From a virus, in IMG/VR virus record IMGVR_UViG_3300036945_000677, positions 1 through 58,928 of that record: 58,928 nt of DNA, one strand, 5' to 3'. Position numbers and translations under genes: made by a program. Numbering within the stretch: position 1 is the first letter of the stretch; every line of letters begins with the position of its first letter. Shown piece after piece: positions 26,816 to 48,951 of the stretch. The notes under the pieces are model-generated. The model was not told the DNA's origin, did no database searches, and worked only from the letters and a program-made list of their open reading frames with translations.

Positions 26816-26843
26816 AATATCGCGTATCGCGATTTGCGATATT
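26816..26843 (-). promoter_or_regulatory. Hairpin that competes with the tRNA-like acceptor stem
   Basis: On the minus strand AATATCGC (26843-26836) can pair over 8 bp with GCGATATT (26823-26816). The first arm shares six bases with the 3' acceptor strand of the tRNA-like element at 26837-26885, so the two folds exclude each other. It ends 20 nt before the ATG at 26796. A run of A follows on the minus strand, so it is not an intrinsic terminator in that direction. Confidence 0.5.
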
Positions 26844-26885
26844 GTAAGGATTCGAACCCTAAAATGACACCGACTGTCCAATACC
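26837..26885 (-). ncRNA. Minimal tRNA-like element after the capsid gene
   Basis: On the minus strand a 7-bp acceptor stem (GGTATTG / CAATATC, one G-T pair) encloses one 4-bp hairpin (GACA-GTCGG-TGTC), the spacer ATTT, and a T arm with 5-bp stem (TAGGG / CCTTA) and the textbook loop TTCGAAT, followed by a G as would-be discriminator. At about 49 nt it lacks room for separate D and anticodon arms, so it cannot be an ordinary tRNA. It lies between the capsid gene hairpin and the next gene. It could be a substrate for RNase P or RNase Z that sets mRNA ends, or part of a switch. Confidence 0.6.
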
Positions 26886-26900
26886 AATCCAGGAGAGGAA

Positions 26901-26922
26901 CCGGGTAGAAAATACTACCCGG
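26901..26922 (-). terminator. Strong hairpin after the major capsid gene
   Basis: A perfect 8-bp stem (CCGGGTAG / CTACCCGG) with a 6-nt loop lies 17 nt past the capsid gene stop. No T-run follows on the minus strand, so it may stabilise the capsid mRNA 3' end or cause partial termination and not be a classical terminator. Confidence 0.6.
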
Positions 26923-26939
26923 CGTGCTCCTGTTTAAGA

Positions 26940-28556
26940 TTACAATGAAGTTCCTGTGATAGGGTTTCTCATAACAATCTTCAACACCTTAGTGGGATCT
27001 TTAACCCAGATCGCAGGCATTGTTTGAGTCATGAACACTTTGTAACCGTTGAAGTTACCAGAGCTGTTGAACCCTTGTGAACGACCCATGTAGTCCATGG
27101 TACCGTTTTGGTAGAACCATTTCAATTCGTTATCCCATTTCAATTTCAACAAGTAAATGTTGTCATTGGTGTTGTCGGTGATATCGAACACGATGAAGTT
27201 GTAAGAAGACAATGGGAAACCGTCAACGATTGGGTTTTCAATGTCGTTAGTGTGAACGTTGTCGAACGCTGGGTTCAATACAAACTTCACGTTAGCTAAG
27301 AACGGAATAGTGTAAGAAGTGAACGCAAAACCGAAGTTCAAGTCCATTCCTTTACCAGTGATTGCCCCGATGTCAGCAGCTTGAACAACCAAACCTGCAC
27401 CTAAAGCTTCCTTCTTAATAGATTCGTTAACCATCTTCATACCAGCCATACCAGTTTGAACTATGATTTGACGCTTAGGATCTGGACCGTTGAACTCAAC
27501 TTTACCATTGTAGAAGTTGAAGATCTCAGAACGGAACAATTCTAAGTTGAAAGAACCTTTGTTGTACACACGTTTGTACGCGTTGTCCAACTGTTTCCAA
27601 AGACCCACAGATAATCTGATATCATCTGGACCGTCTTGTTTAACACGTCCACCTTGTCCCCACATTAAGTAGGTCTCGATGTCTGTTGCAATTTTGCTCA
27701 AATGAGCTGCTTCCAAATTGGTAACGAAAGTTCTAGACAAGTTTCCGTTTTCGTATGCTTTACGTACGAACTCTTTACCTTGCTTCTTAACCATGTCATC
27801 AATAGAAGTGATTGAAGGATCGATAGACTTATCGAAGTTTCTCCAGATCTCAGTTACAGGAACTGTACCATCTGCATTCATTCCACCTTTCATCATCAAT
27901 TCTGCACGAGAACTGATAGAATAGTGTACGTGTGCTTCAGCACCGCCTACGAAGTTGTAGAATTCACGGTAACCAGCAGAGATTTCCCCGATGTCAGAGA
28001 ATTTCTCACCATACTCACCTCTAGCAGAACCTTTACGGAAATACTTGGTGCCTGGTTTCAAGTAGTTCTTGTCGAAAAACTTGGTGTTGTCATTGTTTAC
28101 AATTTGAACTGTGTAAATGAATCCGTCACCAGCTGGAAGAATGTCTTCAGCAGTAACGTACAATTCCACACCGTTGTATTTGTCGTAGGTAACGATGTCA
28201 CCATGTCCGAAAATACGCTTGTTCAATTTGATTTTGAAAGTGGTTCCATCAACACCTGGAGTAGATGCTAATTCAACGTCCTCAGTGATGTACGGAAGAT
28301 CCTGTACTACAGGAACCTGCCATTTGTACTCACCGCGAGCGTTATCAACCATAATGGTGTTTTTACCACCGAAAGATGCCATCTGATAAAGAGGCATTTC
28401 TACCTTTTGAGACATTGCCCATAAGTCTACCGGACCTAAATCCATAGGTTCAGAAGATTTGAGCATGTTTACCAAATGGTAAGAGTCCAAATGTGATCCC
28501 ACCTTATATTGGGTGTCACGTAGGAACAGACCGTTGTTTAATACTGGAGTTGCCAT
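26940..28556 (-). CDS. Major capsid protein
   Basis: A 538-residue protein. The N-terminus (NNGLFLRDTQYKVGSHLDSY ... VEMPLYQMASFGGKN, in parts) and the later FYNFVGGAEAHVHYSI, MMKGGMNADG and DAYKRVYNKGS-type segments fit the HK97-fold capsid proteins of crAss-like phages as I remember them. The length fits that family. It lies directly after the scaffold-like gene and two genes after the portal. Codon use is regular and a strong hairpin follows, as expected for the most abundant virion protein. About 730 copies per capsid would be usual for this group, which I have not verified here. Confidence 0.85.
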   Translation of the reverse strand: MATPVLNNGLFLRDTQYKVGSHLDSYHLVNMLKSSEPMDLGPVDLWAMSQKVEMPLYQMASFGGKNTIMVDNARGEYKWQVPVVQDLPYITEDVELASTPGVDGTTFKIKLNKRIFGHGDIVTYDKYNGVELYVTAEDILPAGDGFIYTVQIVNNDNTKFFDKNYLKPGTKYFRKGSARGEYGEKFSDIGEISAGYREFYNFVGGAEAHVHYSISSRAELMMKGGMNADGTVPVTEIWRNFDKSIDPSITSIDDMVKKQGKEFVRKAYENGNLSRTFVTNLEAAHLSKIATDIETYLMWGQGGRVKQDGPDDIRLSVGLWKQLDNAYKRVYNKGSFNLELFRSEIFNFYNGKVEFNGPDPKRQIIVQTGMAGMKMVNESIKKEALGAGLVVQAADIGAITGKGMDLNFGFAFTSYTIPFLANVKFVLNPAFDNVHTNDIENPIVDGFPLSSYNFIVFDITDNTNDNIYLLKLKWDNELKWFYQNGTMDYMGRSQGFNSSGNFNGYKVFMTQTMPAIWVKDPTKVLKIVMRNPITGTSL

Positions 28557-28594
28557 TGTTAGTTAGGGTATAGATTTGTGTTTTGTGTTTATGA

Positions 28595-29833
28595 TTAACT
28601 GCGTCTGAAAATGTTTGCAGCAGGACGCTGTATAGTTCTCTTAGCAGGTTTGTTTGCGTTGTCGTCTATATCTTCTACAGGGTTAGAAGAAATACGATTT
28701 GATTGTTCGGTCTTCAGCTTTCTCACTGTGTCAGCAGCAGCAGCGTTTTGACCTTGTTGTTTGATTTGTGCTTTATACTCTTCCGGATTTGAGAGTAACC
28801 ACATTGCCTCAGCGATGATTCCGTAGTTTGGTTCAGTGTATTGGTATTTTTCCAATAGGTGTCCAAGTAAGTTTACTTTTCTACCACTCACCGAGTCATA
28901 CTTCGCTTGGGTCATTTCAGTGAAGATGAACGCCTGGGTTTTCTTGTCAAGCTTGATTCCGTTTAACTCACCAGCTTTCACTGTTTCGTAAACATTGTCA
29001 ACGTAGGTCTTCATTGCAACTTCACGTTGTTGCTTCATCTGCTCTTGTTGAGCAAGTTGCGCTTCAACCATTTGTTGCTGCATACGGTCCAATTTTGGTT
29101 TAAACCCGCCTGCTTTCTTTTCAAGGACACCTAAGTCGCTCCACTCCTGGATCTGTTCAGCAATCTCATCTTCAGTTCCAAACTGAGTTGCCATCAGGTA
29201 ATGTCTTGCAATTGCATCAGCGTCACTTTGAGGATCAAGTGAACGAGACTCTTCAACAGAGGCAAGCGCACGGAACAATCCTTTTAAGTCGTTTCCACCG
29301 TCTGCTACGTATTTAGCAGCGTATTGCAATTCTTCAGGTAATGATTCAAAGAACTCTTTAGGAGTTTGCTCACGCACTTGACGCTCACGCTCCTGGATGT
29401 TTGCTTCAAGAAGTTCTTCCCAGTCTTTTACTGAGTACTCTTCTAATTTCTTTTCATCTTCAAAAGGAATGATTGTTCCTTTTTCAATGAGTTTGGAGAA
29501 TGTTTCTACCAAACCGCTTTTGTCAATCTTTGCTCTACCTGGTTTCTTTTTATCCTGGTCGTCGTCGTCGTCACCGTCTCCGGTGATGTCGTCTAAGATG
29601 TCATCTGTTGATAATGCAGCTACCGGTGTTTTTTTACCGTCTGGATCATCATCATCATCCACATCCGTTTTTGACCCTGGTCCATCCAGGAAGGAAGTGT
29701 CTACCTGTCCAGGTTTACTGAACATGCTTGGTTTCTTGTCATCACCAGTCAGAATATCTTCTGCTCCTGGTAGTGGTAAAAAGTCGTCAATGTCTATATC
29801 GACATTTGTTGGTGTTGAACTAGGGGTTGTCAT
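28595..29833 (-). CDS. Scaffold-like capsid assembly protein
   Basis: A 412-residue protein. Residues 1-90 are acidic and disordered (VDIDIDDFLPLPGAEDIL; KTDVDDDDDPDGKKTP; DGDDDDDQDKKK), the rest is helical and Gln/Glu-rich (MQQQMVEAQLAQQEQMKQQR), ending in a basic tail (KPAKRTIQRPAANIFRRS). An acidic N-terminus, coiled-coil middle and basic C-terminus between portal and capsid genes is the classic pattern of scaffolding proteins. No protease motif is visible. The gene follows a terminator, so it likely has its own promoter in the 190-nt gap upstream. Confidence 0.7.
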   Translation of the reverse strand: MTTPSSTPTNVDIDIDDFLPLPGAEDILTGDDKKPSMFSKPGQVDTSFLDGPGSKTDVDDDDDPDGKKTPVAALSTDDILDDITGDGDDDDDQDKKKPGRAKIDKSGLVETFSKLIEKGTIIPFEDEKKLEEYSVKDWEELLEANIQERERQVREQTPKEFFESLPEELQYAAKYVADGGNDLKGLFRALASVEESRSLDPQSDADAIARHYLMATQFGTEDEIAEQIQEWSDLGVLEKKAGGFKPKLDRMQQQMVEAQLAQQEQMKQQREVAMKTYVDNVYETVKAGELNGIKLDKKTQAFIFTEMTQAKYDSVSGRKVNLLGHLLEKYQYTEPNYGIIAEAMWLLSNPEEYKAQIKQQGQNAAAADTVRKLKTEQSNRISSNPVEDIDDNANKPAKRTIQRPAANIFRRS

Positions 29834-29856
29834 TTCTTGGTTGGTTTTTTGACCGA

Positions 29857-29880
29857 GGTCTACATTAATAATCTACATAA
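29857..29880 (-). promoter_or_regulatory. Candidate promoter for the scaffold/capsid unit
   Basis: Between the terminator at 29978-29997 and the ATG at 29833 the minus strand contains GTAGATTATTAATGTAGAC, related to the late motif (GTA-ATT--TAAT-GTA-AC) and to the TAGATTTG box at 39722-39729. The rest of this 190-nt gap is AT-rich with no other feature that I can support. Confidence 0.35.
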
Positions 29881-29977
29881 TTTTAAACGTTCGAGAGTTA
29901 TATGTAGAACTAAAAAATTACAAAGACGTATTACATCGCTAAAGAAACTTGGATGAATACCTAATGAGCATAAAAAA

Positions 29978-29997
29978 CCCCGTCACAGTGGACGGGG
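29978..29997 (-). terminator. Intrinsic terminator after the portal gene
   Basis: A perfect 7-bp stem (CCCCGTC / GACGGGG) with a 6-nt loop is followed on the minus strand by TTTTTTATG. It lies 26 nt past the portal stop and separates portal from scaffold and capsid transcription. Confidence 0.9.
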
Positions 29998-30023
29998 TAG
30001 TTAAATTCGTAGTCTTGTAGATG

Positions 30024-32747
30024 TTAGTCTTTCTTCGATTTTGTGTCAAAACGGTTCTTGTTTTCGCGTGCTACCTGGATTTGTTTGTCAGCAATTTCTT
30101 TACGGGTTCTGAGTTCTTCGCGTTTAAGGTTATTGCGTTCACTTTCCATATTCTGCTTAGAGAGGTTCTCTTCACGTTTCAGGTTCATCTGATCCTGGTC
30201 TTTACGTCTGCGGTCCAATACGTCCAAAGAATCTAAATAATCGCTTTGTTGGTTCTGGTTGATATCCTGCATTGCTCCAAAACCAGCAGAACGAATTTCA
30301 GCCTCCTGGAGGTTGTTAACACGATCCAATTGCTTTTGCTCTGCTTCAAAGCGTTGCTTCGATTCCTGACGCTCTGTTTCAGCTTTCTGACGCATTTCCT
30401 CCATTTCCTTCTGAGACGCTTGCGATTGTTGCTGTTGTTGCTCCATTTTACGTTCAACACCTTTAAGAACGGTATTGATCTCCGCCATGCTTTCAGCTTT
30501 AACCAAATTACCCAGGTCATAGATACTTGCACCACTTGTATTATTGGATAACGCCAACTGACGGATCTGCTCCATGATCTGCCTGGTATTTACCTTGGTT
30601 GTACAGAACACGTTAAAATCACGCATAAGTAAATCAGTTCCGTTGATCTGGAAGTTCACACGCTCGTCCATGGTGGTCATGTACTGCAACCTAACACTTG
30701 GACGCTGTGAGTTATAAAACTGTGCAAGGTCCGTACGCATCTGATGCACACGAGGCATTAAGTATTCACTGTGCTGTACAAAGTACATTTCAGTCTGGGA
30801 ATAACTTTGATTAATTGCTTGTTCCACTCCAGTAGCAGACTCTTGTGCATTGACCGCACCCATACGCTGTGGAGAAATACCAATGGTTTCAAACGCCTGT
30901 GACTTGAAATAATTAGCAAGTTGGATACGACTCATCAAACGTTGAGATTGTTCCATGTTTAAAACCTGATAGTGGTTAAACCCTAAAGCGTTCTCTGTGT
31001 TACTGATAGAGGTATCAAGTGGAAGCATGTTGAAATTCTTCATTGCAACATATGCTTTTGCTAAATTGTTCTTACCCCAGTCTTCACCCATTGAATGTTT
31101 AGGAAGTGCATTCTGGTCAAGCATAATCACAGTACCTAATTCGTCGATCAGGATATCAGCAATCTGGTTGTTTACCATGTTGTATCCAATCTGGTAAGGT
31201 TTCATCTTGTCAACCAGGGATACAGATTTACTGTTACGGTCTGTGAATACAGACCCTTCAACCGGCAGTTTACACCCGTACAACGTAAAGTCACCTTTGA
31301 ACTGGAAAGGAATAGGTTTAAGATTGAGGTAAATTGGTTGTACACCGTTTACGTCAGCAGACCCGTAGAAACTTGGACGGTTAGGACCGACCTTAATTCC
31401 ACTCCAGGTCTGGTTGATCCAGATCCATTCAATGTGTTCTCCGTAGATTAACGTTTCAGAATTTTTGTTTTTATTGAGGGTAGTATTGTAAAGCGGTTTG
31501 TCAACAACCTTGTAATCCTCGGTAACTACTTGCTGGATAACCATACCGTCTTCAGAGATCTTAGTTAAATGTCCCACCATGCGCTGACTCTTCCAGTACA
31601 CTGTAGTTACACGAAGCATCTGGTAAGTACCGTAATCAAATAAGTCCTCACTTTGAGTAACGATCTGAGTAATCAAATCATCTCCCATGCTCAGGAAATT
31701 ATCAGTAACACTCATGAACTGACGCATTCCCAAAGAAGGCATATTAGTGTTCCAATCATGCGAGCGCGTAGCGTCGTAGAAAGAACCGTCATTTTGCTGA
31801 CCCAGGATAGGATATGCAGCAGATTTTACAGGATAGATGTGTTCAAGTGCCTGTAGCTGTTCATCGTCCATCATATAACCGTATTTGTCAATGATGTCTG
31901 CTAAGGTTATTAATTCAATTTTACCTACCCAGTTTCCTTGTGATACATAACGTACGTCCGGACTCTTGTGGTAAAACGTCAATACCGGATTCCATAGTTC
32001 GATTTCATAATCGTCTTCCATCATCCTGAAATGCCAGAACTCACGGTCTGCAACTAAGCTGTCTCTGAACCCTGTAGTTTCAAGTTCTTTCATTTTAAAA
32101 CGCTCCTCGTCTACTTTGTGCTGGTGGGTTGCCCACTGCTCATGAAGACTGCGATACGTCTTAGCATAATATTGCTGGATCTCCGGGAGGGATTGTACTT
32201 GTTGCTGCATTTGTTGCTGCACTTCTTCGTTAGACAAATCAGCACCCTGTTCCATTAAAGCTTTAGCAAGTTTGGACTCTGCCTGACTTACCAAATAGTT
32301 CTCAATATCTGCACGTTTCTCTTCTAACATTTCGTTATAAGACAAATCATCAACTGCACGATACAAGATGCGATCAGTACGTTTGGCAAACTCACCGGTC
32401 ATAACATTAACAACATTTGGAATAATAGGATAGAATTTAAGTTCCAATGCTGTTTCGTCTTCCCTGGTTAAAATGTCAACAAGATCAGCTTCTTCATTAT
32501 CTTCAGAAACAATGTAATCGGTCTTGTCAATGATACCGTTTGCAAGCTTGTAGTTTTTTAGCAACCTGCGTGCATTACGACGAAGTTGTTTAAGACCCTG
32601 CAACTCCAACCAGTCAACGTTCCACGCTGCCCACTCGTCGTTTTTTTCTTTCTGCGGTAAAAATTGAACAGGTTGGGTAATGGTACCCATCTTGTTATAT
32701 TCGGATTTTGCACCGTTTTTAAGTTGGAGTGCGTTATAGACTTTCAT
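30024..32747 (-). CDS. Portal protein
   Basis: A 907-residue protein directly downstream of the terminase and upstream of the scaffold and capsid genes. It has the portal-type layout: a mixed clip and stem region (FYPIIPNVVNVMTGEFAKRTDRILYR, in parts), long helices in the middle (MSRIQLANYFKSQAFETIGISPQRMG) and a long Gln/Glu/Arg-rich coiled-coil C-terminus (about residues 770-907) forming the barrel. The motif NAQESATGVEQAINQSYSQ is one I recall from crAss-like portals. It forms the dodecameric DNA entry ring. The confidence rests on context and recall. Confidence 0.85.
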   Translation of the reverse strand: MKVYNALQLKNGAKSEYNKMGTITQPVQFLPQKEKNDEWAAWNVDWLELQGLKQLRRNARRLLKNYKLANGIIDKTDYIVSEDNEEADLVDILTREDETALELKFYPIIPNVVNVMTGEFAKRTDRILYRAVDDLSYNEMLEEKRADIENYLVSQAESKLAKALMEQGADLSNEEVQQQMQQQVQSLPEIQQYYAKTYRSLHEQWATHQHKVDEERFKMKELETTGFRDSLVADREFWHFRMMEDDYEIELWNPVLTFYHKSPDVRYVSQGNWVGKIELITLADIIDKYGYMMDDEQLQALEHIYPVKSAAYPILGQQNDGSFYDATRSHDWNTNMPSLGMRQFMSVTDNFLSMGDDLITQIVTQSEDLFDYGTYQMLRVTTVYWKSQRMVGHLTKISEDGMVIQQVVTEDYKVVDKPLYNTTLNKNKNSETLIYGEHIEWIWINQTWSGIKVGPNRPSFYGSADVNGVQPIYLNLKPIPFQFKGDFTLYGCKLPVEGSVFTDRNSKSVSLVDKMKPYQIGYNMVNNQIADILIDELGTVIMLDQNALPKHSMGEDWGKNNLAKAYVAMKNFNMLPLDTSISNTENALGFNHYQVLNMEQSQRLMSRIQLANYFKSQAFETIGISPQRMGAVNAQESATGVEQAINQSYSQTEMYFVQHSEYLMPRVHQMRTDLAQFYNSQRPSVRLQYMTTMDERVNFQINGTDLLMRDFNVFCTTKVNTRQIMEQIRQLALSNNTSGASIYDLGNLVKAESMAEINTVLKGVERKMEQQQQQSQASQKEMEEMRQKAETERQESKQRFEAEQKQLDRVNNLQEAEIRSAGFGAMQDINQNQQSDYLDSLDVLDRRRKDQDQMNLKREENLSKQNMESERNNLKREELRTRKEIADKQIQVARENKNRFDTKSKKD

Positions 32748-32758
32748 ATTAGTTCTAA

Positions 32759-33067
32759 TTAAAATTTGGTGTTACTACCTTTCATTAAAGGTATGTCTGA
32801 CGTGTGAGTAATGTCTGCATAAACAAGTGAATGATTAATAGATACAGCACCACCAAGACCAGGTGTAGTACCACTTGATGACATAAATTTTTTGTAAAAA
32901 TCCAGGTCAAGTTTAGATTCAGTAGGTTCTGGTTCAAATGTAACCAATTCAGATTGCATAAGTGACAGTTCATCTCCACTGATGTGTCCTTTGTTAAACA
33001 GTCGTCCCAATATATTGACAATCGTCTCCTTTGGAGACAGGGTTGAGGTTACTTCATTAGGTTCCAT
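32759..33067 (-). CDS. Small protein between terminase and portal
   Basis: A 102-residue protein (PKETIVNILGRLFNKGHISGDE, then ESKLDLDFYKKFMSSSGTTPG, in parts) with one amphipathic helix and a loose C-terminus. Its ATG overlaps the terminase stop codon and it ends 11 nt before the portal ATG, so it belongs to the packaging operon. I do not recognise it. Confidence 0.6.
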   Translation of the reverse strand: MEPNEVTSTLSPKETIVNILGRLFNKGHISGDELSLMQSELVTFEPEPTESKLDLDFYKKFMSSSGTTPGLGGAVSINHSLVYADITHTSDIPLMKGSNTKF

Positions 33068-37089: not shown

Positions 37090-37102
37090 AGGGTTGGATT
37101 AG

Positions 37103-37173
37103 TTGTCCCGAGAGGATTCGAACCTCTACGCTCTGAGTCAAAGTCAGATGAACTGCCATTATTCTACAGGACA
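37103..37173 (-). tRNA. tRNA-Gln (TTG)
   Basis: A normal cloverleaf on the minus strand: acceptor TGTCCTG / CGGGACA (one G-T), D arm GAA..GG..TTC, anticodon stem TCTGA / TCAGA with loop CTTTGAC (anticodon TTG), T arm AGAGG-TTCGAAT-CCTCT, discriminator A. CCA is not encoded. It reads codon CAA. It lies 6 nt after tRNA-Met. Confidence 0.92.
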
Positions 37174-37179
37174 ATGTAG

Positions 37180-37250
37180 TAGCGCAGAAGGGAGTCGAAC
37201 CCCTAGTCCAGGATCATGAGTCCTGTGTGTTACCGTTACACTACCGCGCA
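37180..37250 (-). tRNA. tRNA with CAT anticodon (Met, possibly Ile2)
   Basis: A normal cloverleaf: D arm GTGT-AACGGTA-ACAC, anticodon stem CAGGA / TCCTG with loop CTCATGA, T arm AGGGG-TTCGACT-CCCTT, discriminator A. The first acceptor pair is a T-T mismatch. The GGG/CCC pairs of initiator tRNA are absent from the anticodon stem, so it is an elongator Met, or an Ile tRNA whose C34 is modified. CCA is not encoded. Confidence 0.85.
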
Positions 37251-37908: not shown

Positions 37909-37933
37909 AATATTGGTTTTTTAATAATGTTTG

Positions 37934-38294
37934 TGGAGATGGGCGGTATCGAACCGCCGTCCAATAAAGCAGCAGATATGTACAGTTATTTACATGCTTA
38001 GTACTTGAAATCACAAATTGTGATATCATGCACCGTAAGGGTTGACCGAAGTCAGATTCCACCACCTGGTTTTGACATCACCAGGAAAACGCTTGTCATT
38101 TTGGGTCAGGGATGACTCCCTGTGACTTAGGCTGCCATTTCGTATTCGTTCACGAATTCGATAGCTTTTTCAAAAGTCATTTCAGATAATTGTACGTTGC
38201 CGTTTAAATTTTTAATACGTGATTAAAGAGAACAGTATCATCTCTCTGCATGTGTACATGTCCCCGACAATACTGTCGAATCCATTTCATCCCC
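37934..38294 (-). ncRNA. ssrA: Phage-encoded tmRNA with a long tag ending in MAA
   Basis: The 5' end reads GGGGATGAAATGGATTCGACAG and the 3' end GGACGGCGGTTCGATACCGCC then CATCTCC. GGGGATG pairs with CATCTCC over 7 bp and the T arm GGCGG-TTCGATA-CCGCC is standard. A reading frame ends ...EFVNEYEMAA then TAA at 38127-38129. By analogy with the E. coli spacing of about 90 nt, the resume codon is near 38199-38204 (AAC or GGC), giving a tag of roughly 24-25 residues. The region downstream can form further helices (TCACAGGGAGTCATCCCTGA). It would rescue stalled ribosomes together with host SmpB; no smpB is seen here. CCA is not encoded. Confidence 0.92.
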
Positions 38295-41954: not shown

Positions 41955-41980
41955 AAATTTTATACACCCTAATGACAACT

Positions 41981-42016
41981 CCCCCCCCTGGTACCCCTGG
42001 GGGTTTTTTATGTCCC
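41981..42016 (+). terminator. Intrinsic terminator after dCMP deaminase
   Basis: A run of C (41981-41988) can pair with GGGGG (41999-42003) around a short loop and is followed by TTTTTT. It closes the 39784-41954 operon. Confidence 0.7.
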
Positions 42017-42259: not shown

Positions 42260-42268
42260 CTTACAAAC

Positions 42269-42544: not shown

Positions 42545-42550
42545 GACATT

Positions 42551-42585
42551 ACAGCGTAGAGACTAATACTCTCTGCGCTGTTTCT
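42551..42585 (+). terminator. Intrinsic terminator after the membrane gene
   Basis: A 12-bp stem (ACAGCGTAGAGA / TCTCTGCGCTGT, one G-T pair) with a 7-nt loop, followed by TTCTT, starts 6 nt past the stop codon. Confidence 0.85.
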
Positions 42586-42601
42586 TAATGATCTACTGTT
42601 C

Positions 42602-42662
42602 GAATGACTCCGTCATTCTCACTTTTCATAGTGCTTCACGTACTTGAACTTACACTAAAAAT
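42602..42662 (+). promoter_or_regulatory. Hairpin-promoter module, copy 2
   Basis: A palindrome GAATGAC-TCC-GTCATTC (42602-42618) is followed 14 nt later by GCTTCAC-N3-CTTGA-N8-TAAAAAT (42633-42662), with the same spacing as copy 1. Even part of the spacer (TTACAC) is the same. The ATG at 42670 follows 7 nt later. Confidence 0.6.
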
Positions 42663-42669
42663 CAGCATT

Positions 42670-43092
42670 ATGTCTAACAAAACGTTCAAATTGAAAGCGA
42701 CTTTCGCTTACATGACTTCGACTGGCTACGCTTACACCGTATCGCCTGCTTCTAACGACAAGAAAACTGCGCAAGCGGACTTGGACTTCTTCGAAGAAAA
42801 TTACACCGAGCAGGGTAACCGAGCTCCGGGTGTTTTCTATTCGAACATGCTTCTCGAGGACGGCGAAGTCCAAACCTACGAGAACCAAGACGGCGAAATC
42901 CGCTTCGTGTTGCGTCCTTCTATGGACTTCATCCGCGAACAAGCTCACCGTCAGTTCGAGAATCGCACGAGTGCAGGACGTCGCCCAGCTGCGCGTACTA
43001 TCGTTGCGGAAACAACCGACGATGAAGCCGACTTCGACGATGCACCTGCTGCAAAAGCACCTGCAACGAAAGCTGCTGCGCCTAAAGCGTAA
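42670..43092 (+). CDS. Hypothetical protein with Ala/Lys/Pro tail, atypical composition
   Basis: A 140-residue protein from the ATG at 42670, chosen because the promoter module ends just before it; an in-frame upstream extension would run through the promoter. The body is polar and mixed alpha/beta (FKLKATFAYMTSTGYAYTVS; DLDFFEENYTEQGNRAPGVF). The tail is acidic (TTDDEADFDDA) and then AAKAPATKAAAPKA. Codons are clearly richer in G and C (TCG, GCG, CGC) than in neighbouring genes, suggesting recent transfer or very high expression. Function unknown; a DNA-binding accessory protein is possible. Confidence 0.65.
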   Translation: MSNKTFKLKATFAYMTSTGYAYTVSPASNDKKTAQADLDFFEENYTEQGNRAPGVFYSNMLLEDGEVQTYENQDGEIRFVLRPSMDFIREQAHRQFENRTSAGRRPAARTIVAETTDDEADFDDAPAAKAPATKAAAPKA

Positions 43093-43100
43093 TCACAGAG

Positions 43101-43132
43101 ACAGGGAGGGTAACACCTCTCTGTTTTCTTTT
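43101..43132 (+). terminator. Intrinsic terminator after the 140-residue gene
   Basis: A 9-bp stem (ACAGGGAGG / CCTCTCTGT, one G-T pair) with loop GTAACA, followed by TTTCTTTT, begins 9 nt past the stop codon. Confidence 0.85.
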
Positions 43133-43144
43133 AACGGTATCCGT

Positions 43145-43488
43145 TCTCTCTATAGAGAGAGAAGACACATCGCTGATCTTTCGCTGATTCTTTTACGTTA
43201 ACAAAAGCGGTCTCGCTGCGCTCGGCATTTTTGACACGGTGCAAACTAACGTTTGCTTACCGTGATCCAGCAACGACACATCATCGCCGAATCCCGATGA
43301 TAACCGTTGTACCCGCCACCGGTCCCGTACCCGCTCCCGGACTTGCCGTTGTCACCCGCATTGCGATCCGGCATATTGACTACGTTCTCCAGGAGAGAAA
43401 CAGTTCAGTTGCAGTGCGCTTGGAATAGTTTGTCTGCTTTCTCTATAGAGAGAGAGACAAGACACTGGTGTTAGATTACTCTATAGAG
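43145..43488 (+). repeat. Three copies of a CTCTATAGAG palindrome
   Basis: TCTCTCTATAGAGAGA (43145-43160, 16-bp perfect palindrome), TCTCTATAGAGA (43440-43451) and CTCTATAGAG (43479-43488) share the centre CTC-TATA-GAG. Related T/C-rich half-sites (TTCTCTATAG, TTTCTCTCTTAG) recur at about 43887-43950. They may be operators or RNA hairpins. Between them lies a long imperfect hairpin (43235-43264, CACGGT-CAAAC / GTTTG-ACCGTG). Confidence 0.55.
43297..43428 (+). CDS. Doubtful small ORF in a GC-rich patch
   Basis: From an ATG at 43297 a frame of 43 residues runs to TAG-type TAG at 43426-43428 (MITVVPATGPVPAPGLAVV ...). It is Val/Pro/Ala-rich and lies in a patch much richer in G and C than its surroundings. 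No promoter or clear ribosome site is visible. It may be non-coding; I list it only because the composition is striking. Confidence 0.2.
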   Translation: MITVVPATGPVPAPGLAVVTRIAIRHIDYVLQERNSSVAVRLE

Positions 43489-43509
43489 AGAGCGAATAAC
43501 CTTATGCTC

Positions 43510-43571
43510 GAATGCCTTCGGCATTCTCGCGTTAACATATTGCTTCACTTCCTTGAATCTAGCTTATTATA
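43510..43571 (+). promoter_or_regulatory. Hairpin-promoter module, copy 3
   Basis: A palindrome GAATGCC-TTC-GGCATTC (43510-43526) is followed 15 nt later by GCTTCAC-N3-CTTGA-N8-TATTATA (43542-43571), again with identical spacing. No ORF begins near it: the next gene starts at 43996. It may therefore drive a non-coding RNA or a long leader. Confidence 0.6.
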
Positions 43572-43900
43572 GTAACTGATCGGTACACGTTGTACCTGTT
43601 AACGCAAGAGTTATAGTGATATATAACGCGTTATTAACCCAAGTCTCAGTTAATACACCGATTGCAACTAATTGTTTGGTAATAAGTTGCGCGTGTTAGA
43701 GCGGGTGCAAGACATCACCACAACCCTTATTGATCCAATCGTCTCCAACACTAAAATGCACCAACACGTCTTTCTCGACGGTTGCATTAGATGGCTAGCA
43801 AGGTAGTTAGAGAGCAAGTACGGGTAGTAATTCCTGTATTGCAGTAGGATCATGAGTACTGACAGATGAGTACGACATTTAATTGTTTCTCTATAGTGTT
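43572..43900 (+). ncRNA. Candidate non-coding RNA or long leader
   Basis: Directly behind promoter module 3, over 320 nt without a credible gene. Local hairpins include GGTACA-CGT-TGTACC (about 43592-43606) and a 10-bp stem with one bulge, GCAA-TACGGG / CCTGTA-TTGC (about 43813-43842). No known RNA family is recognised. It ends near a second set of T/C-rich repeats before the gene at 43996, so it could also be that gene's leader. Confidence 0.3.
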
Positions 43901-43995
43901 TCTCTCTTAGTGTATTCTTTCTCTCTATATACTTGTTCTCTCTCTTAGGAGGAAAAAGATAGAGAACCACCGCCAGCACCCCAATAACCAGAACT

Positions 43996-44325
43996 ATGAA
44001 ACAACTAGATATACTACAAGACATGCTTGACCACCTTGCATCTGAAAAGATTACCTATGTCCTCATACCATGTAACAATCACACCACTGCTAAGTATCTC
44101 ATGAAAGCATTAGCAGAGAAAGGAATCAATTGGACTGACGGTACTGAGTTGACAGAGAATACTAATTGGGGGACATACGCAAAGGAAACTCTATATGCTA
44201 TTATCATCCGTAATCGTGAATTTTTCTTGATATGTGGTTGTATAGATAACATCGATAGTTTACACGATGCCATATACAAGTATGCAATGATAGCACCTCA
44301 TGCAATCTTTACTTCTTTAGTATGA
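43996..44325 (+). CDS. Hypothetical protein
   Basis: A 109-residue, mixed alpha/beta protein (LDHLASEKITYVLIPCNNHTTAKYLMKALAEKG, in parts; then TLYAIIIRNREFFLICGCID). The strand-helix order suggests a small sensor or nucleotide-related fold, but no motif is recognised. It is preceded by AGGAGG about 40 nt upstream and by the repeat-rich leader. It appears to be transcribed from promoter module 3 or a nearby promoter. Confidence 0.55.
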   Translation: MKQLDILQDMLDHLASEKITYVLIPCNNHTTAKYLMKALAEKGINWTDGTELTENTNWGTYAKETLYAIIIRNREFFLICGCIDNIDSLHDAIYKYAMIAPHAIFTSLV

Positions 44326-44690
44326 CGTTAAACTATTAAACATGAAAGGGTGATGACCAACATCAATCAAATCCAGGTTGTGAACATAAGCTAGTTCACG
44401 TAATACCACAACAAGGAGTAGCATCCTACAACACCTGAGCATGTGTAAACTGCTCAAGTAATGCACCATAACTCACGTGGATATATATAAAACCACACTG
44501 ATTAAAGTGTACTATGCATGTCTACTCATGTGTATAGTATCGACATCCTTTAATTAGTCTCCCAAGGGTGAGCAGTTGTAGTAGGAGACTCTTACTAACA
44601 GGAAAGATATCACGAAGAGAAGGTGATCAATGCCTATTACAACTGAGTGCAAAGGGATTCACCTTGTACCTAATAACGAAAAGATTACTT
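44326..44690 (+). other. Structured non-coding stretch
   Basis: No gene is visible in 365 nt. Hairpins include GTGAAC / GTTCAC (about 44381-44400), TGAGCA / TGCTCA (about 44436-44456), ACACT / AGTGT (about 44493-44513) and a perfect 7-bp AGTCTCC / GGAGACT enclosing 21 nt (about 44557-44591). No acceptor-plus-T-arm pattern is present. It could be a regulatory RNA or the decayed remains of tRNA-like genes. Confidence 0.35.
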
Positions 44691-45254
44691 ATGAATAAAC
44701 AACATTTCCACGAACTACTCGAAATGGTCTACAGAGACATGCATTCTGCCATAATAGGTGGTAGTGTAATGTTAAATCTGCGAGATCTGATTGCTCGAGC
44801 ACCCAATGACGTTGACATCATCATCCCTGAGCATCTCTCTTTTACTAAGTTCTTAATTGAACTGCCTGAAATAAATGCTGGTCATACTGGTGAGAGTACC
44901 CTTAGTAGTACCTGTACAGACGTGTTTGGTAACCGTATTCAACGCATTGCTTGTCAGTACAAAGACATCAAAATCTGTGTGTTTAAAGTACCAGTAGAAC
45001 AACTGATCTATGATACAGCGTTAGTAGAGTTAACTTACATTGACGCTATTGACGTACGCATTCAGAAACCTATGTTTGCTATTGAAGCCAAACGCCAGTA
45101 TGTCAAAGACCATTACTTGAAGAAAACCCTTTCAAATCCTTACATGTTAAAGCACATTCAAGATCTTAGGGATATTGCTTTAAGTATGGGGTTAAGTGAT
45201 GAAGATGCTCTCCTGAAAGAGTGTTTTTCTTCCTTGTACGAACCTCCATTTTAA
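44691..45254 (+). CDS. Nucleotidyltransferase-fold protein
   Basis: A 187-residue protein from the ATG at 44691; a longer frame upstream would run through the structured stretch. IIGGSVMLNL (G23-G24-S25) followed by NDVDIIIPE (D40, D42) is the active-site signature of the DNA polymerase-beta-type nucleotidyltransferase superfamily (GG-S ... D-x-D). The rest is helical. Members include tRNA CCA-adding enzymes and antitoxin-system transferases. It lies immediately before a tRNA-like element (its stop is 1 nt from it), which makes RNA a possible substrate; that link is inference. Confidence 0.65.
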   Translation: MNKQHFHELLEMVYRDMHSAIIGGSVMLNLRDLIARAPNDVDIIIPEHLSFTKFLIELPEINAGHTGESTLSSTCTDVFGNRIQRIACQYKDIKICVFKVPVEQLIYDTALVELTYIDAIDVRIQKPMFAIEAKRQYVKDHYLKKTLSNPYMLKHIQDLRDIALSMGLSDEDALLKECFSSLYEPPF

Positions 45255-45255
45255 A

Positions 45256-45423
45256 TGACCTCAGTGGCGGAATGCTTATATACTGGTCAATCATAAGAAC
45301 CCACTATATAACTTGGTAGACGCAAAAAAACTGTAATGAGGTATGTCCGAACCTCACATTAAATAAAAAAGGGTACAACGCAGAAGTGCGGAAGAGTTAC
45401 AGGTTCAATTCCTGTATGGTCCA
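45256..45423 (+). ncRNA. Expanded tRNA-Leu-like element
   Basis: The T arm is standard (ACAGG-TTCAATT-CCTGT) and GTGGCGGAAT ... TTGGTAGACGC is the D-arm signature of tRNA-Leu. But 40 nt are inserted in the D loop (45274-45313), forming their own 7-bp helix TTATATA / TATATAA. A class II variable arm is visible (CGCA-GAAG-TGCG). The anticodon region also holds an extra hairpin (TGAGGT / ACCTCA). The acceptor matches only GACC / GGTC. Instead TGACC-AGT can pair locally with ACTGGTCA (45282-45289). It ends 16 nt before an ATG. Confidence 0.5.
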
Positions 45424-45439
45424 CTAAACCACAATTATT

Positions 45440-45748
45440 ATGCAATACACAATTCACCACCCATTTGGTGGGGTTCTCAACACGGAATGTGTGAGGGGAC
45501 AGCACGAGTATCAGGAAGTAGCGTTCGTGCATGCCAACTCTTTGAGTGAAGCCTACTTCAAATCACAAAATGATTTCAATGTTCAGTACGCTGTGTTAAA
45601 CATTCGTTCTACAAGTGTAGGTGATATCATTACAGATCCTAGTGGTAAGCATCACATGGTGAAGCCATCTGGGTATGTTGAAGTACCTGGTAGTTTACTT
45701 AATCATGTAAACTTTAGTAACCATAAAAACCGTGTTGCCAGTTTCTAA
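45440..45748 (+). CDS. Small conserved phage protein
   Basis: A 102-residue protein (TIHHPFGGVLNTECVRGQHE, then FVHANSLSEAYFKSQNDFN and NIRSTSVGDIITDPSGKHHM, in parts). I recall the RSTSVGDII type of segment from hypothetical phage proteins. It may be a small beta-sheet protein. The ATG lies 16 nt after the tRNA-like element, so processing there would leave a very short leader. Confidence 0.6.
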   Translation: MQYTIHHPFGGVLNTECVRGQHEYQEVAFVHANSLSEAYFKSQNDFNVQYAVLNIRSTSVGDIITDPSGKHHMVKPSGYVEVPGSLLNHVNFSNHKNRVASF

Positions 45749-45753
45749 CGATC

Positions 45754-46182
45754 ATGATAATGCACGAAATCCTTAACAAAGCTTTTGACATACTGCCTTG
45801 CATAAAGTGGTATGGTAATGCCATCGTATTCTATGATGTCGATAATCAAAATGAGATTACTAGACGTGATGTTAGTACATTGTTTGTTGAACGTAACTTT
45901 GGTGACGCTGACACTATTGTCATTTTAAAAGTCAAGAACAATGAGCTTTTCATTAAGCAAATTGTTGTACCTAAAGTTAGTCTAAGAATGCTTAAAGTTA
46001 CTCAAGAAGACTTGACTGAGTTCTTCTTCCTGGAGATAGACCCAAACATGCAGTATCATTCTCTTATCTATAAGAACACCAAAGATGCTGGTAATCTTAA
46101 CAGATATGATAATGATCAATATATTGCTGATCTTCTCCTGGAACTGGAAGTCAAACCGGAAAACGTATTTATCGAACCCTAA
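45754..46182 (+). CDS. Hypothetical protein
   Basis: A 142-residue protein; a second ATG 6 nt downstream of the first (MHEILNKAF) is an equally good start. The sequence is mixed (WYGNAIVFYDVDNQNEITRR; TIVILKVKNNELFIKQIVVP), acidic at the C-terminus. No motif is recognised. It is followed by the next gene with an overlap of 1 nt (TAATG). Confidence 0.55.
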   Translation: MIMHEILNKAFDILPCIKWYGNAIVFYDVDNQNEITRRDVSTLFVERNFGDADTIVILKVKNNELFIKQIVVPKVSLRMLKVTQEDLTEFFFLEIDPNMQYHSLIYKNTKDAGNLNRYDNDQYIADLLLELEVKPENVFIEP

Positions 46183-46487
46183 TGTTTGATAAAGATTTAC
46201 CGGATGTAGTAATGAAACACTTCTATAAAGTCGTAAATAGCACCAATACAGATTACTATATCGCTACAGAACATCCTTTTCACAAAAGACAACTGTACTG
46301 TAAAAGAGACACAAACTTTATCGGTATCTCGTACAACAGATACAAAAAAAGCTGGTCAGTGTACAAAAACATGTACACTATCAACCAGGAATTGGATAAA
46401 CATATTTTCTATCCAATTACCAAAACTGATTTTGTTTACGAGTTCAACAAAGCACTTGTTGCTTTAAGTAATATAGAGTTTGAGTAA
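46182..46487 (+). CDS. Hypothetical protein
   Basis: A 101-residue protein, rich in Tyr, Lys and Phe (HFYKVVNSTNTDYYIATEHP; NRYKKSWSVYKNMYTINQEL). No motif is recognised. Its ATG overlaps the stop of the previous gene. It is followed by a 34-nt gap with a small hairpin (GAGGTG-A-CACCTC) and then a tRNA-like element. Confidence 0.55.
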   Translation: MFDKDLPDVVMKHFYKVVNSTNTDYYIATEHPFHKRQLYCKRDTNFIGISYNRYKKSWSVYKNMYTINQELDKHIFYPITKTDFVYEFNKALVALSNIEFE

Positions 46488-46521
46488 AATCAAGAGGTGA
46501 CACCTCCATAATCATGTCAAT

Positions 46522-46591
46522 TCCCCGTAAAATTTACGGAACTGAGGTCTAGCTAGTAGACGGAGGGAGTGTTCAAATCACTCACGGGGAG
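46522..46591 (+). ncRNA. tRNA-like element with perfect acceptor and T arm, odd centre
   Basis: A perfect 7-bp acceptor (TCCCCGT / ACGGGGA), T arm GAGTG-TTCAAAT-CACTC and discriminator G. The body between is 38 nt, slightly short, and contains a stem GTCT / AGAC with loop AGCTAGT. A normal 7-nt reading would put CTA in the anticodon place, but residue 33 is G and not T, so decoding is doubtful. The acceptor 5' strand can instead form CCGTAA-AAT-TTACGG. It ends 16 nt before the ATG at 46608. Confidence 0.6.
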
Positions 46592-46607
46592 CAAACATTT
46601 TATTCGC

Positions 46608-46835
46608 ATGAAAAGTTTTAAAAGAAAAAGAAGAGCAGCAGGTGGAATACTTGCAACTTCGCAGCACACATTCCCCAACGTAGTAGCTTTAGCTGAATGG
46701 ATCAGTACTAACATCTTTGACCAACAAAAGCAAGAACGCCTCATGTTGGAAGGAGTAAGAAATCAATGTACTATCACAGTTACCATGCTAGATCGTTGTG
46801 AAAAACTTACACGTCAAACTAAACCTGTATCATGA
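46608..46835 (+). CDS. Small hypothetical protein
   Basis: A 75-residue, basic N-terminal protein (MKSFKRKRRAAGGILATSQH) followed by helices (VVALAEWISTNIFDQQKQERL). The ATG is chosen at 46608 because it is the first after the tRNA-like element, exactly 16 nt from its end. It overlaps the next gene by 4 nt. No family is recognised. Confidence 0.55.
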   Translation: MKSFKRKRRAAGGILATSQHTFPNVVALAEWISTNIFDQQKQERLMLEGVRNQCTITVTMLDRCEKLTRQTKPVS

Positions 46836-47122
46836 TTGATCCAGAGTTAGAAAAATTGCTTATCCGTGAAGGGTATTTCTCATTAAGAGAGATACCCAAT
46901 CGCGGTATTGTCGGTCTTAGTCAGTTTATATTTACTGTAGGTATTGTCTATGGACTAAATGCTACTGGTTATGAAGGACGCTATTGTTACTCACGCATGA
47001 AAGATGCAATTGAAGCTTTCAAAACCTGGGACGGTGTCAATGACCCTGACGGTCCATGGATTAAACACAAAGGTCATTTCGAATATTCAAATCCTAAATT
47101 AGATGAAACAATTATTGATTAG
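46832..47122 (+). CDS. Small conserved phage protein
   Basis: A 96-residue protein. GIVGLSQFIFTVGIVYGLNA and YCYSRMKDAIEAFKTWDGVND with PWIKHKG (in parts) form a pattern I recall from a widespread hypothetical phage protein. It ends in TAG, a rare stop in this window, and overlaps the next gene by 20 nt. Confidence 0.65.
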   Translation: MIDPELEKLLIREGYFSLREIPNRGIVGLSQFIFTVGIVYGLNATGYEGRYCYSRMKDAIEAFKTWDGVNDPDGPWIKHKGHFEYSNPKLDETIID

Positions 47123-47444
47123 TTTATTATGTTTACTGTCTTTTAACATTAAAGCACAGACAGACACGTCCTGGTCGTTTCCAATTGAGTATTGTAAAGA
47201 ACCAGGAATGCTGGTACCTACGTTTGAAGATTCTTGTATGATCGACGGACTAGGTTTTGACGGTCCTATAATCAAAGCTTACCTGTTTAAATTCAGTGAA
47301 TTTAACATGGTGATTACTTTAAAGTATGAAAAGTACGATGTCGTATATGTCATAGATGATGGATTTATCAAAGACATCATTGAAATCGGAAAAAATCATT
47401 ATTATCGTTATCCCGATGAGGAATTAAATATTGATTATGACTAG
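47103..47444 (+). CDS. Small secreted or periplasmic protein
   Basis: A 113-residue protein with an N-terminal signal peptide (MKQLLISLLCLLSFNIKAQ, cleavage likely after KA-Q or A). The mature part is mixed and acidic (SWSFPIEYCKEPGMLVPTFE). Two Cys may form a disulphide. It starts inside the previous gene and ends in TAG overlapping the start of the next. Exported phage proteins of this kind may act on the host envelope; unknown. Confidence 0.6.
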   Translation: MKQLLISLLCLLSFNIKAQTDTSWSFPIEYCKEPGMLVPTFEDSCMIDGLGFDGPIIKAYLFKFSEFNMVITLKYEKYDVVYVIDDGFIKDIIEIGKNHYYRYPDEELNIDYD

Positions 47445-47991
47445 CAATGCTACACAACAAAAGAAGTACAAACCGTTGATCTTTACAGGTGTTATACCTG
47501 TCATTGAGAAAAACAAAAAGGTCAAGTTTATGAATGGTAACATTGTTGCCATTGGTAAGTATTGCTCTCTTTATGACAAAAATCCCGGCAGTACGTTTGA
47601 TCCTAAGCAGTACTGCGTCATGGTCATCAAGAAAATGGAAACAGATACTGAGACAAATAAACCGGTTGAAAAGACGATGCGTTTTATCACTGATCTTACC
47701 CAGGAGATGTTAACCAGTTACATCAAAGTTCAAAACCAAGCTCAATACCAAAAGACACGTCCTGCATTTGAAAGTTCATTAAAACCCGGTGACAAAGTAC
47801 ATCTGTTTTCCAAACAAGGAATTTATTCCATTGTCAGTATTTACGGTCATCCAGGATTGATGACAGCTAAACTCACTTGTAACCAATGGGTTATGCAAGA
47901 ACAACGAGGTGAAGGTAAAGCAGTACAGCAATTTTTTTTATCAGAAATCAAATGCCTTGCAGGCGGACTGCATAATGCAGTATTTAACTAA
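47437..47991 (+). CDS. Hypothetical protein
   Basis: About 184 residues from the ATG at 47437 (MTSNATQQKKYKPL), chosen because it overlaps the previous stop (ATGACTAG); an in-frame ATG lies 6 nt upstream. The sequence is beta-rich (LIFTGVIPVIEKNKKVKFMN; VHLFSKQGIYSIVSIYG). No motif is recognised. Confidence 0.55.
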   Translation: MTSNATQQKKYKPLIFTGVIPVIEKNKKVKFMNGNIVAIGKYCSLYDKNPGSTFDPKQYCVMVIKKMETDTETNKPVEKTMRFITDLTQEMLTSYIKVQNQAQYQKTRPAFESSLKPGDKVHLFSKQGIYSIVSIYGHPGLMTAKLTCNQWVMQEQRGEGKAVQQFFLSEIKCLAGGLHNAVFN

Positions 47992-48057
47992 TATAAGGCG
48001 GTAGACTAATAATTAACCATTATAAGTTTAACGCCTTATAGTTTAACTCTAAAACTT

Positions 48058-48693
48058 ATGAAAATACATACTAAACACTTCATCACACCACAAGCAAAGT
48101 TTGACTTCAGTCGCTTCTGCTTGTTACCAACCATCAACTTTTCAGTTTACAAAACCGGAAAAGATTTTGACGAAAACACTGACAGTGAACTCACTCAGAA
48201 ACATCGATTACTTCGATTTGAGTGGTTATTTTTCTCTTGCGGATTTATTTGGATGACTGCTATGCTAGACAAACCTTTCAGAGCAGCTGATCTAAAACAT
48301 CTTAAACACAAGACTAACCTCGGATGGCGACTGTTCATTGCGTTCTCTATTATCATCGCAGGTATGGTTATCAGCTTCATTTCTAAAAATGCTCAAGATA
48401 GTCATTTTCAATATTTTACAGTTTGTCTTGCTTTAATGATGATGCTTACAGTGTCTATGGACCGTAGCGACTACTTGTTAGACGAATATAGTGACCTGGC
48501 AAGTACTGAAGACGAATCAGTTTCAAAAGCGATTGACAGGATAATTGAAATGAAGACAGAGATTATGATATTAAAGTCTAATAATCAGTTATCAGAAGAA
48601 ACAATAGCACAACTTGAAACTGAAATCATTAAACTGAAATCAAAACCTGCTCCTAAGAAAAGAGCAGTAAAAGAAACCGTGTCTAAAGCGTAA
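48058..48693 (+). CDS. Membrane protein with C-terminal coiled coil
   Basis: A 211-residue protein with hydrophobic spans at about residues 59-67 (weak), 93-112 (LFIAFSIIIAGMVISFI) and 121-138 (FTVCLALMMMLTVSM), then a coiled coil (IIEMKTEIMILKSNNQLSEE) and a basic tail (KPAPKKRAVKETVSKA). The upstream AT-rich gap contains two copies of GTTTAAC-like sequence (AAGTTTAACGCC, TAGTTTAACTCT), a motif seen also at 39740 and 56055. Function unknown. Confidence 0.6.
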   Translation: MKIHTKHFITPQAKFDFSRFCLLPTINFSVYKTGKDFDENTDSELTQKHRLLRFEWLFFSCGFIWMTAMLDKPFRAADLKHLKHKTNLGWRLFIAFSIIIAGMVISFISKNAQDSHFQYFTVCLALMMMLTVSMDRSDYLLDEYSDLASTEDESVSKAIDRIIEMKTEIMILKSNNQLSEETIAQLETEIIKLKSKPAPKKRAVKETVSKA

Positions 48694-48704
48694 GTTTTAG
48701 ACGT

Positions 48705-48863
48705 AAACACTGTGGTTGCAGAGGATACCAAAGCGAAAGTTATAAGTACGCTAGTATATCAAAAGGCGAGTAAGATTCTTAATAAAAAGATGCTGAAACC
48801 GAGTCGATGAAAGGGTCAAGCTGACGATTACCTACAACGCCGGTTCGAACCCGGCAGTGTTTG
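48705..48863 (+). ncRNA. tRNA-like element with large central insertion
   Basis: A perfect 7-bp acceptor (AAACACT / AGTGTTT), D arm GGT-TGCAGAGGAT-ACC, T arm GCCGG-TTCGAAC-CCGGC and discriminator G. Between D and T arms lie 109 nt where about 22 are usual. Within this I see AGCG / CGCT, TCTT / AAGA and GTCA-AGC-TGAC helices but no convincing anticodon arm. About 159 nt in total. It is too short for a group I intron insert of normal size. It could be a tRNA with a small unknown intron or a new structured RNA. It sits 3 nt before the next tRNA-like gene. Confidence 0.55.
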
Positions 48864-48866
48864 CAA

Positions 48867-48951
48867 AGGGAAGTTGGGTATTGTGTATCCCAGTGATAGT
48901 CCTTGCAAAAGACTATTACAAGTGCCGGTTCGAATCCGGTCTTCCCTTCCA
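48867..48951 (+). tRNA. tRNA-Cys-like (GCA) with elongated anticodon helix
   Basis: A perfect acceptor AGGGAAG / CTTCCCT, T arm GCCGG-TTCGAAT-CCGGT, discriminator T and encoded CCA, both typical of tRNA-Cys, as is the loop TTGCAAA (anticodon GCA). But the anticodon helix is 9 bp, GTGATAGTC / GACTATTAC, plus a C-A mismatch next to the loop, where 5 bp are normal. The D arm (GGGTA ... TA-CCC) lacks a clear GG pair in its loop. It may be a functional tRNA that evades cleavage, or a decoy. Confidence 0.6.

Follow-up and report, generated by a model that had tools for sequence, protein, structure and literature searches.

What are RNAs with both ends of a transfer RNA (tRNA) but a centre matching no ordinary tRNA layout? 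The question is posed by IMGVR_UViG_3300036945_000677, a 58.9-kb record of the IMG/VR virus collection (positions 1 to 58,928, analysed as a whole and here called the window), in which an earlier note had described five such elements, here A to E, leaving it open whether they constitute a nuclease-resistant tRNA kit, a processing system or a new RNA class. The window is a piece of an environmental crAss-like phage. Matches to PHROG head and packaging families were found for its major capsid, portal and terminase proteins, the terminase is ~25% identical to those of gut crAss-like phages, and 80 relatives of the capsid protein were retained from IMG/VR at 79-87%. The elements have compensated ends and lack an anticodon, lie between mostly co-directional genes, and occur in viral or virus-like sequence only. 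They are probably virus-specific, non-decoding tRNA shells matured by host ribonuclease P (RNase P) and 3' tRNA enzymes, which would thereby cut polycistronic messenger RNA (mRNA), release tRNA-ended small RNAs, or both.

Architecture of the five elements

A blind scan, set to find a 5-bp T-stem enclosing TTCRANN and, immediately after it, a 7-nt strand with an upstream partner, recovers B (46522), C (48705), D (48867) and E (26885, minus strand) with a full acceptor, and the T-arm of A (45399) without one. All elements thus combine a 7-bp acceptor with a 5-bp T-arm and TTCRANN loop, except for the acceptor of A, and this independent scan agrees with the T-arm common to five loci and the good acceptor in four that had been read by eye. 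Dinucleotide-shuffled windows give 0.225 T-arm-plus-acceptor matches per window, which rules out a chance origin. The refined elements are:

45257..45423, plus strand: element A, Leu-type D-arm halves at 45265-45273 and 45313-45323, T-arm at 45399-45415
46522..46591, plus strand: element B, acceptor TCCCCGT/ACGGGGA, T-arm at 46567-46583, G73 and C74
48703..48864, plus strand: element C, 9-bp acceptor GTAAACACT/AGTGTTTGC (48703-48711 / 48856-48864), T-arm at 48839-48855
48866..48951, plus strand: element D, 8-bp acceptor AAGGGAAG/CTTCCCTT (48866-48873 / 48941-48948), T-arm at 48924-48940
26838..26885, minus strand: element E, a minimal 48-nt form with acceptor GGTATTG/CAATATC, hairpin GACA-GTCGG-TGTC and T-arm

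The abnormal centres first noticed (a 4-bp hairpin in E, a 9-bp helix in D, a D-loop insert in A and ~85 extra nt in C) are correct and the elements real; their boundaries needed refinement, the acceptor measuring 8 bp in D, 9 bp in C and ~4 bp in A, and the insert of A 39 nt. This insert (45274-45312), with a 7-bp helix TTATATA/TATATAA, splits the D-arm of A, whose centre spans ~75 nt and whose short acceptor (GACC/GGTC) is followed by A-C-T-A. The centre of B is a hairpin, GTCT-AGCTAGT-AGAC, without a D-stem, and that of C comprises 109 nt with a D-arm-like GGT..ACC. Element D (z -4.68) encodes its CCA at 48949-48951. Two more conserved hairpins (CCTCTATGCAGATAAAGAGG, CCCGGAGCTTCTGTACTCCGGG) lie downstream of D at 48952-49050, before the next gene.

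None of the five is called by ARAGORN or Rfam, whose calls in the window are confined to two ordinary tRNAs, one transfer-messenger RNA (tmRNA) and one group I intron; the covariance-model check proposed in the earlier note therefore yielded no Rfam call. A tRNA-Sec identity for D was rejected (22.3 bits, E 0.49, against the 47 needed). The Rfam tmRNA model does not recognise the elements, its sole match in the window being a separate gene (37931-38294), and the Rfam scan places no group I core within them, the only such intron lying at 55245-55512. No Rfam ribozyme family matched at the tRNA-like 3' ends, the published theta motif being outside these scans.

Compensated ends and a missing anticodon

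BLAST of the elements against fetched DNA led to G066 (128 kb; stretch L210), a syntenic relative with a capsid protein 96% identical and DNA identity of ~65-80% over most of the window. At the same intergenic sites G066 carries orthologues of B, C, D and E. That of B (L210 2373) carries one compensatory pair (TCCCCGT/ACGGGGA to TCCCTGT/ACAGGGA), and that of C (L210 4029) two, with the acceptor changed to GTAAGCACT/AGTGCTTGC and the T-stem from GCCGG/CCGGC to CCCGG/CCGGG. Four are found in D (L210 4913; GACGGGTG/CACCCGTC), the -1:73 pair included. In E (G066 109976, minus strand, same place) both helices are rewritten, the acceptor from GGTATTG/CAATATC to TGAACTG/CAGTTCG and the T-stem from TAGGG/CCTTA to CAGTG/CACTG. 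G066 also holds a still smaller element (L463 19838-19879), 42 nt made up of ACTGGTA, 11 nt, a T-arm and TACCAGT.

Over 55 acceptor, T-stem and hairpin pairs compared between the window and G066, 40 are unchanged, 12 differ in both bases, 3 in a single base, and none is broken; one G066 base in E could pair in the acceptor or, alternatively, in the small hairpin, and without it the double changes number 11. When the 3' strands are mutated at random by the observed amount, a mean of 14.5 pairs break, with a minimum of 6 in 20,000 trials. The paired changes indicate that the element ends are under selection. The search for compensatory changes in relatives, which the earlier note had named as its own refutation test, thus upholds its view that the elements are not products of chance decay, and decay of tRNA genes is contradicted.

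The anticodon does not share this constancy. In the orthologue of B the loop AGCTAGT becomes AAAA (GTCT-AGCTAGT-AGAC to GTC-AAAA-GAC), and the loop of D, CTTGCAAAA, which is GCA-like, becomes TATAAGTC, with the long helix rebuilt at 8 of 9 positions and one T-T mismatch; a tRNA-Cys reading of D was dropped on this ground. Within the AGTCAGG class described below, a 5-bp/7-nt anticodon arm after the D-arm is possible in 2 of 169 members against 1.1 for shuffled centres. The proposed kit of nuclease-resistant decoding tRNAs is accordingly unsupported, whereas the other two possibilities, a processing system and a new RNA class, have gained support. With no pair broken and the anticodon loops not kept, the elements are neither decaying nor decoding tRNAs. 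As far as their sequences go, these are functional RNAs with no part in codon reading, because their ends are selected and the code-reading arm is replaced by ever-changing sequence.

Centres diverge faster than shells between the two genomes. The 109-nt centre of C is weakly alignable with its orthologue (identity 0.62 with gaps; score 9.5 against -1.4 +/- 3.9 for shuffled sequence), compared with 0.76 for the flank of D. Searches with the sequence patterns of C and E matched only the known relative, a DNA search of cultured phages with window positions 44.5-49.5 kb gave no match, and pattern searches found no relatives of the proteins adjoining A and C.

The AGTCAGG class and neighbouring RNAs

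Relatives of the window carry many more tRNA-like elements, the commonest type having the acceptor AGTCAGG/CCTGACT, a D-arm TGGCGGAATTGGTAGACGC, the sequence found in bacterial tRNA-Leu, a T-arm RCAGG-TTCRANT-CCTGT and a hypervariable centre between the arms. At least 300 IMG/VR contig stretches contain the pattern in three exact-pattern scans taken together (L numbers in this text label contig stretches in general), and L155 has as many as seven copies within 5 kb; the class counts that follow (165, 169, 190, 234 and so on) are among the matches listed. Among members selected by their 3' half, 145 of 165 have exact AGTCAGG and the others are wobble-compatible; the 5' half was absent from this search pattern, and members without any such upstream strand were excluded from the 165. 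Conversely, the T-arm is directly followed by exact CCTGACT at 181 of 234 sites selected by their 5' half, most deviations being wobble-compatible. U8 (159/165), A14 (146/165) and the 15-48 pair (A-U 114, G-C 6, A-C 10, A-A 5, G-U 1; Fisher p=8e-6) are kept; the L-shaped core is thus retained although the anticodon arm is missing. A73 is present in 150 of the 165, and C74 in 257 of 269 non-canonical elements against 211 of 212 canonical tRNAs.

By its D-arm and T-arm, and with A15 and U48 present, element A belongs to this class. G066 has three elements at the position of A, two of them members of the class; one of these two bears AGTTAGA/TCTAACT, two compensatory changes from AGTCAGG/CCTGACT. 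A second sub-family in the relatives has the acceptor TGTAGAG and variants, a GTCTC loop, G73, a D-loop insert and a 60-85-nt variable domain. Leu-like class-II bodies whose anticodon loop centres on GTCT (in most cases YTGTCTC, giving anticodon GUC, with G73 and C38, an Asp-type identity) were seen in L010, L011, L013, L016, L022, L027, L034, L041, L046, L056, L064, L070, L157, L190, L208 and L257, some with D-loop inserts and many with a 60-85-nt variable-arm domain (GGGTTGACCAC...). Some class members elsewhere exceed the Rfam tRNA threshold, and at other loci tRNA is the only model that fires.

The centres show structure of their own. Similarity unites 49 of 169 into 19 clusters, in four of which compensatory changes occur within the elements, chiefly in helices of the centre (GATAAC/GTTATC versus GGTAAC/GTTACC; three versions of a variable-arm helix in L290, L361, L362 and L395). 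A helix ending near the T-stem is enriched over shuffled centres (mean z 0.71 +/- 0.13); an anticodon-stem-like 5' helix is not (z 0.22 +/- 0.14), and minimum-free-energy folds are unremarkable by eye. One centre can sit in different acceptors, as in L256 (AGTCAGG) and MW202828 (AGTGCAG/CTGCACT), L240 and L269, or L155 and L214; the scan demanded pairing acceptors, and these cases are supportive only.

The elements are confined to contigs that are viral or virus-like. In 84,980 genomes of bacteria and archaea, the T-arm-plus-acceptor pattern occurs on 12 contigs, all from uncultured assemblies and with aberrant centres, which argues against a host tRNA origin or integration-derived tRNA fragments; when a looser pattern was run on 296 genomes from the phylum to which a Flavobacterium-labelled assembly belongs, the class sequence appeared only on the contig of that assembly itself. 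Unrelated phages very likely share the class, since a crAss-type terminase was not detected in 35 of the 40 carriers examined, although many carriers are fragments; contigs of 160-270 kb are also among them. Recurrence of one acceptor sequence could reflect either specific protein recognition or recent spread.

AGTCAGG elements overlap long open reading frames (ORFs) in 16 of 190 cases against 61% at random positions, both neighbouring genes are co-directional with the element in 105 of 134, and an upstream stop codon lies within 30 nt of 40 of 140, compared with 20 of 178 canonical tRNAs. An intact minihelix between co-directional genes, as looked for in an RNase P substrate or mRNA punctuation, is therefore what is found. 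In the window, A starts a few bases after the stop of its upstream gene (ORF 44568-45254), C ~10 and B ~35 nt after, and E ~55 nt past the stop of the major capsid gene, with a strong hairpin between. The other RNA features of the window are:

26901..26923, minus strand: strong hairpin separating E from the stop codon of the capsid gene, lacking a T-run and possibly protecting the 3' end
37102..37173, minus strand: ordinary tRNA-Gln (TTG), called by ARAGORN and Rfam, used as a comparison tRNA
37179..37250, minus strand: ordinary tRNA-Met (CAT), called by both programs, likewise a comparison tRNA
37931-38294, minus strand: phage tmRNA found by the Rfam tmRNA model
44461..44656, plus strand: R2 RNA, conserved shell TGCACCATAACTCAC / CCCAAGGGTGAGCAGTTGTA / TACAACTGAGTGCAAAGGG with two variable inserts, ~600 nt upstream of A
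55245-55512: group I intron that overlaps the final part of a homing-endonuclease ORF (54572-55315), upstream of ORF 55555-56052

The two normal tRNAs had been recognised in the earlier note, which missed the tmRNA. The tmRNA tag, GNVQLSEMTFEKAIEFVNEYEMAA here and GNVELSEMTFEDAIEFVNEYDMAA in G066 (L469 13587-14015), is unusually long and acidic. The capsid hairpin is conserved in G066, and many relatives keep a hairpin here. None of the first 80 relatives showed element E itself on the 3' side of the capsid gene, and many carry other structures there (CTCCACCTCCTC..hairpins..CTCCTGAGAAGCAACTACCTTGACGTGGTTCAGGAG, CCTATTGTACGCGTACCATG..AGGTTCTA, or CAGTACTCAG..CTGAGTC; in L003, L032, L035, L037, L044, L048, L068, L071, L075 and others), making the 3' end of this gene a hot spot for RNA structures.

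R2 represents a second RNA class, with a shell CTCAC-TTCCCAAGG-GTGAG, CAGTTGTAAT[insert]ATTACAACTG and AGTGCAGAGGG, hypervariable inserts and covarying helices (for example CAGTATG/CATACTG and CAAGTTGTAATACA/TGTATTACAACTTG). It has no convincing match in Rfam and recurs in other phages and G066 (L122, L125, L127, L150, L161, L315, L391, L441 and, at ~2940-3040, L463), sometimes directly upstream of an AGTCAGG element (L147, L360). AGTCAGG elements in L155 (1425-1350, minus strand), L193 and L145 share a centre with a CTC-CCCAAGG-GAG hairpin resembling that of R2, a hint that modules move between shells.

Possible roles and relation to known RNAs

Selection keeps the acceptor/T-arm minihelix, and in the AGTCAGG class also the D-arm and elbow contacts, with the anticodon arm missing or swapped for variable RNA. 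This minihelix is what RNase P, 3' tRNA nucleases and the CCA-adding enzyme recognise. Because model substrates with nothing beyond an acceptor stem, T-stem and T-loop are reported to be cut by RNase P (PMC11143913), host RNase P could be expected to cut the 5' end, and 3' tRNA enzymes to cut and add CCA. Cleavage would sever the polycistronic transcript between genes and release a stable tRNA-ended small RNA with the centre as cargo. Cutting would best fit E and B, which have little cargo, and carriage would fit A, C, D and the AGTCAGG class. The fast change of the centres suggests a contest with hosts or rival phages. A more specific proposal is tenable, if short of probable: natural, virus-specific tRNA-scaffolded small RNAs with a common shell across unrelated phages, in which tRNA enzymes would mature and cap fast-changing effectors (antisense, decoy or anti-defence).

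Several points weigh against non-decoding shells that both cut and carry. Most of the acceptor of A is gone, and this element may be dead or rearranged; G066 is the only close relative of the window in the collections, leaving B to E with two sequences each; neutral filler would fit the barely alignable centre of C as well as cargo; and pure processing does not account for AGTCAGG/CCTGACT recurring in unrelated phages. The strongest rival, unlikely in our estimate, is pure mRNA punctuation, in which the elements would serve solely as places between genes where RNase P and 3' tRNA enzymes cut and the excised piece, centre included, has no function. The intergenic, mostly co-directional placement near stop codons, the freely varying centres and the position of E, a near-minimal RNase P substrate behind a strong hairpin 3' of the capsid gene, all suit it; it does not predict a Leu-type D-arm, the 15-48 pair, an acceptor recurring in unrelated phages, or compensated helices and conserved loops within centres.

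Less probable still are aminoacylated non-decoding tRNAs, Leu-type bodies that host leucyl-tRNA synthetase, which does not read the anticodon, would charge as decoys or amino-acid donors. A73, A14, a class-II variable arm and the D-arm would agree with this, as would the enriched helix near the T-stem, which typically ends 2 nt before it, a distance likewise seen in Leu tRNAs. Elements B, C, D and E, however, lack Leu-type features. Functional tRNAs interrupted by small spliced introns are very improbable: some centres lie inside a 5-8 bp helix at the anticodon-stem position (L110, L153, L167) and a gene for a T4-type RNA ligase is present in 7 of 40 carriers, but that ligase was not found in the other 33, RtcB is encoded by none of the 40, the 5' helix is not enriched, orthologue loops are not conserved, and inserts also occur in the D-loop and variable arm. 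Splicing was thus rejected as a general explanation. Least credible are decaying tRNA genes or integration leftovers; tRNA tools do not call the elements and the acceptor of A is damaged, but no pair is broken, both ends and the elbow contacts are kept, and the class sequence is not that of a host tRNA.

Non-decoding, cut-and-carry shells have partial counterparts among known RNAs. Intergenic tRNAs or tRNA-like structures set mRNA ends in mitochondrial tRNA punctuation and in plant t-elements, and biotechnology tRNA scaffolds hold foreign RNA in place of the anticodon arm, their ends being matured as in tRNA. Unlike the former, the phage elements carry hypervariable cargo, and the open-access literature searched contains no phage case; the scaffolds are man-made, and the phage elements would be their natural counterpart. 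Canonical tRNA (RF00005) shares the acceptor, T-arm and C74, and with the AGTCAGG class also the D-arm, U8-A14 and 15-48 contacts; the elements differ in carrying up to ~140 nt of variable RNA instead of an anticodon arm, those of the window falling below the model threshold. tmRNA (RF00023) similarly joins tRNA ends to a non-tRNA domain, and a phage tmRNA lies in the same window, but the elements are unrecognised by its model and much shorter, and class members keep the D-arm. E is a natural look-alike of the RNase P model substrates for which acceptor stem and T-arm suffice (PMC11143913); in contrast to these and to plant viral tRNA-like structures, the elements are internal, multi-copy, variable in their centres and present in DNA phages. 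Theta ribozymes adjoin phage tRNAs as a maturation device, also in phages of Bacteroidota (PMC10879173); they are self-cleaving RNAs beside tRNAs, not altered tRNAs. No Rfam 15 family covers the window elements, and the open-access literature searched describes no anticodon-less tRNA class in phages: related papers concern integration-derived tRNA fragments, phage tRNA clusters and theta ribozymes beside phage tRNAs, and a review of non-canonical tRNAs makes no mention of phage. The class may therefore be new, fitting none of these families or papers, with an unseen report possible.

A widespread phage RNA class has probably been overlooked, because tRNA finders leave most elements uncalled or assign them meaningless isotypes; tRNA counts of phages with such elements are also unreliable. 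AGTCAGG...CCTGACT provides a simple sequence handle for hundreds of uncharacterised phage RNAs. If the proposed function is true, phages would have detached the tRNA maturation signal from decoding and reused it for transcript cutting and RNA carriage.

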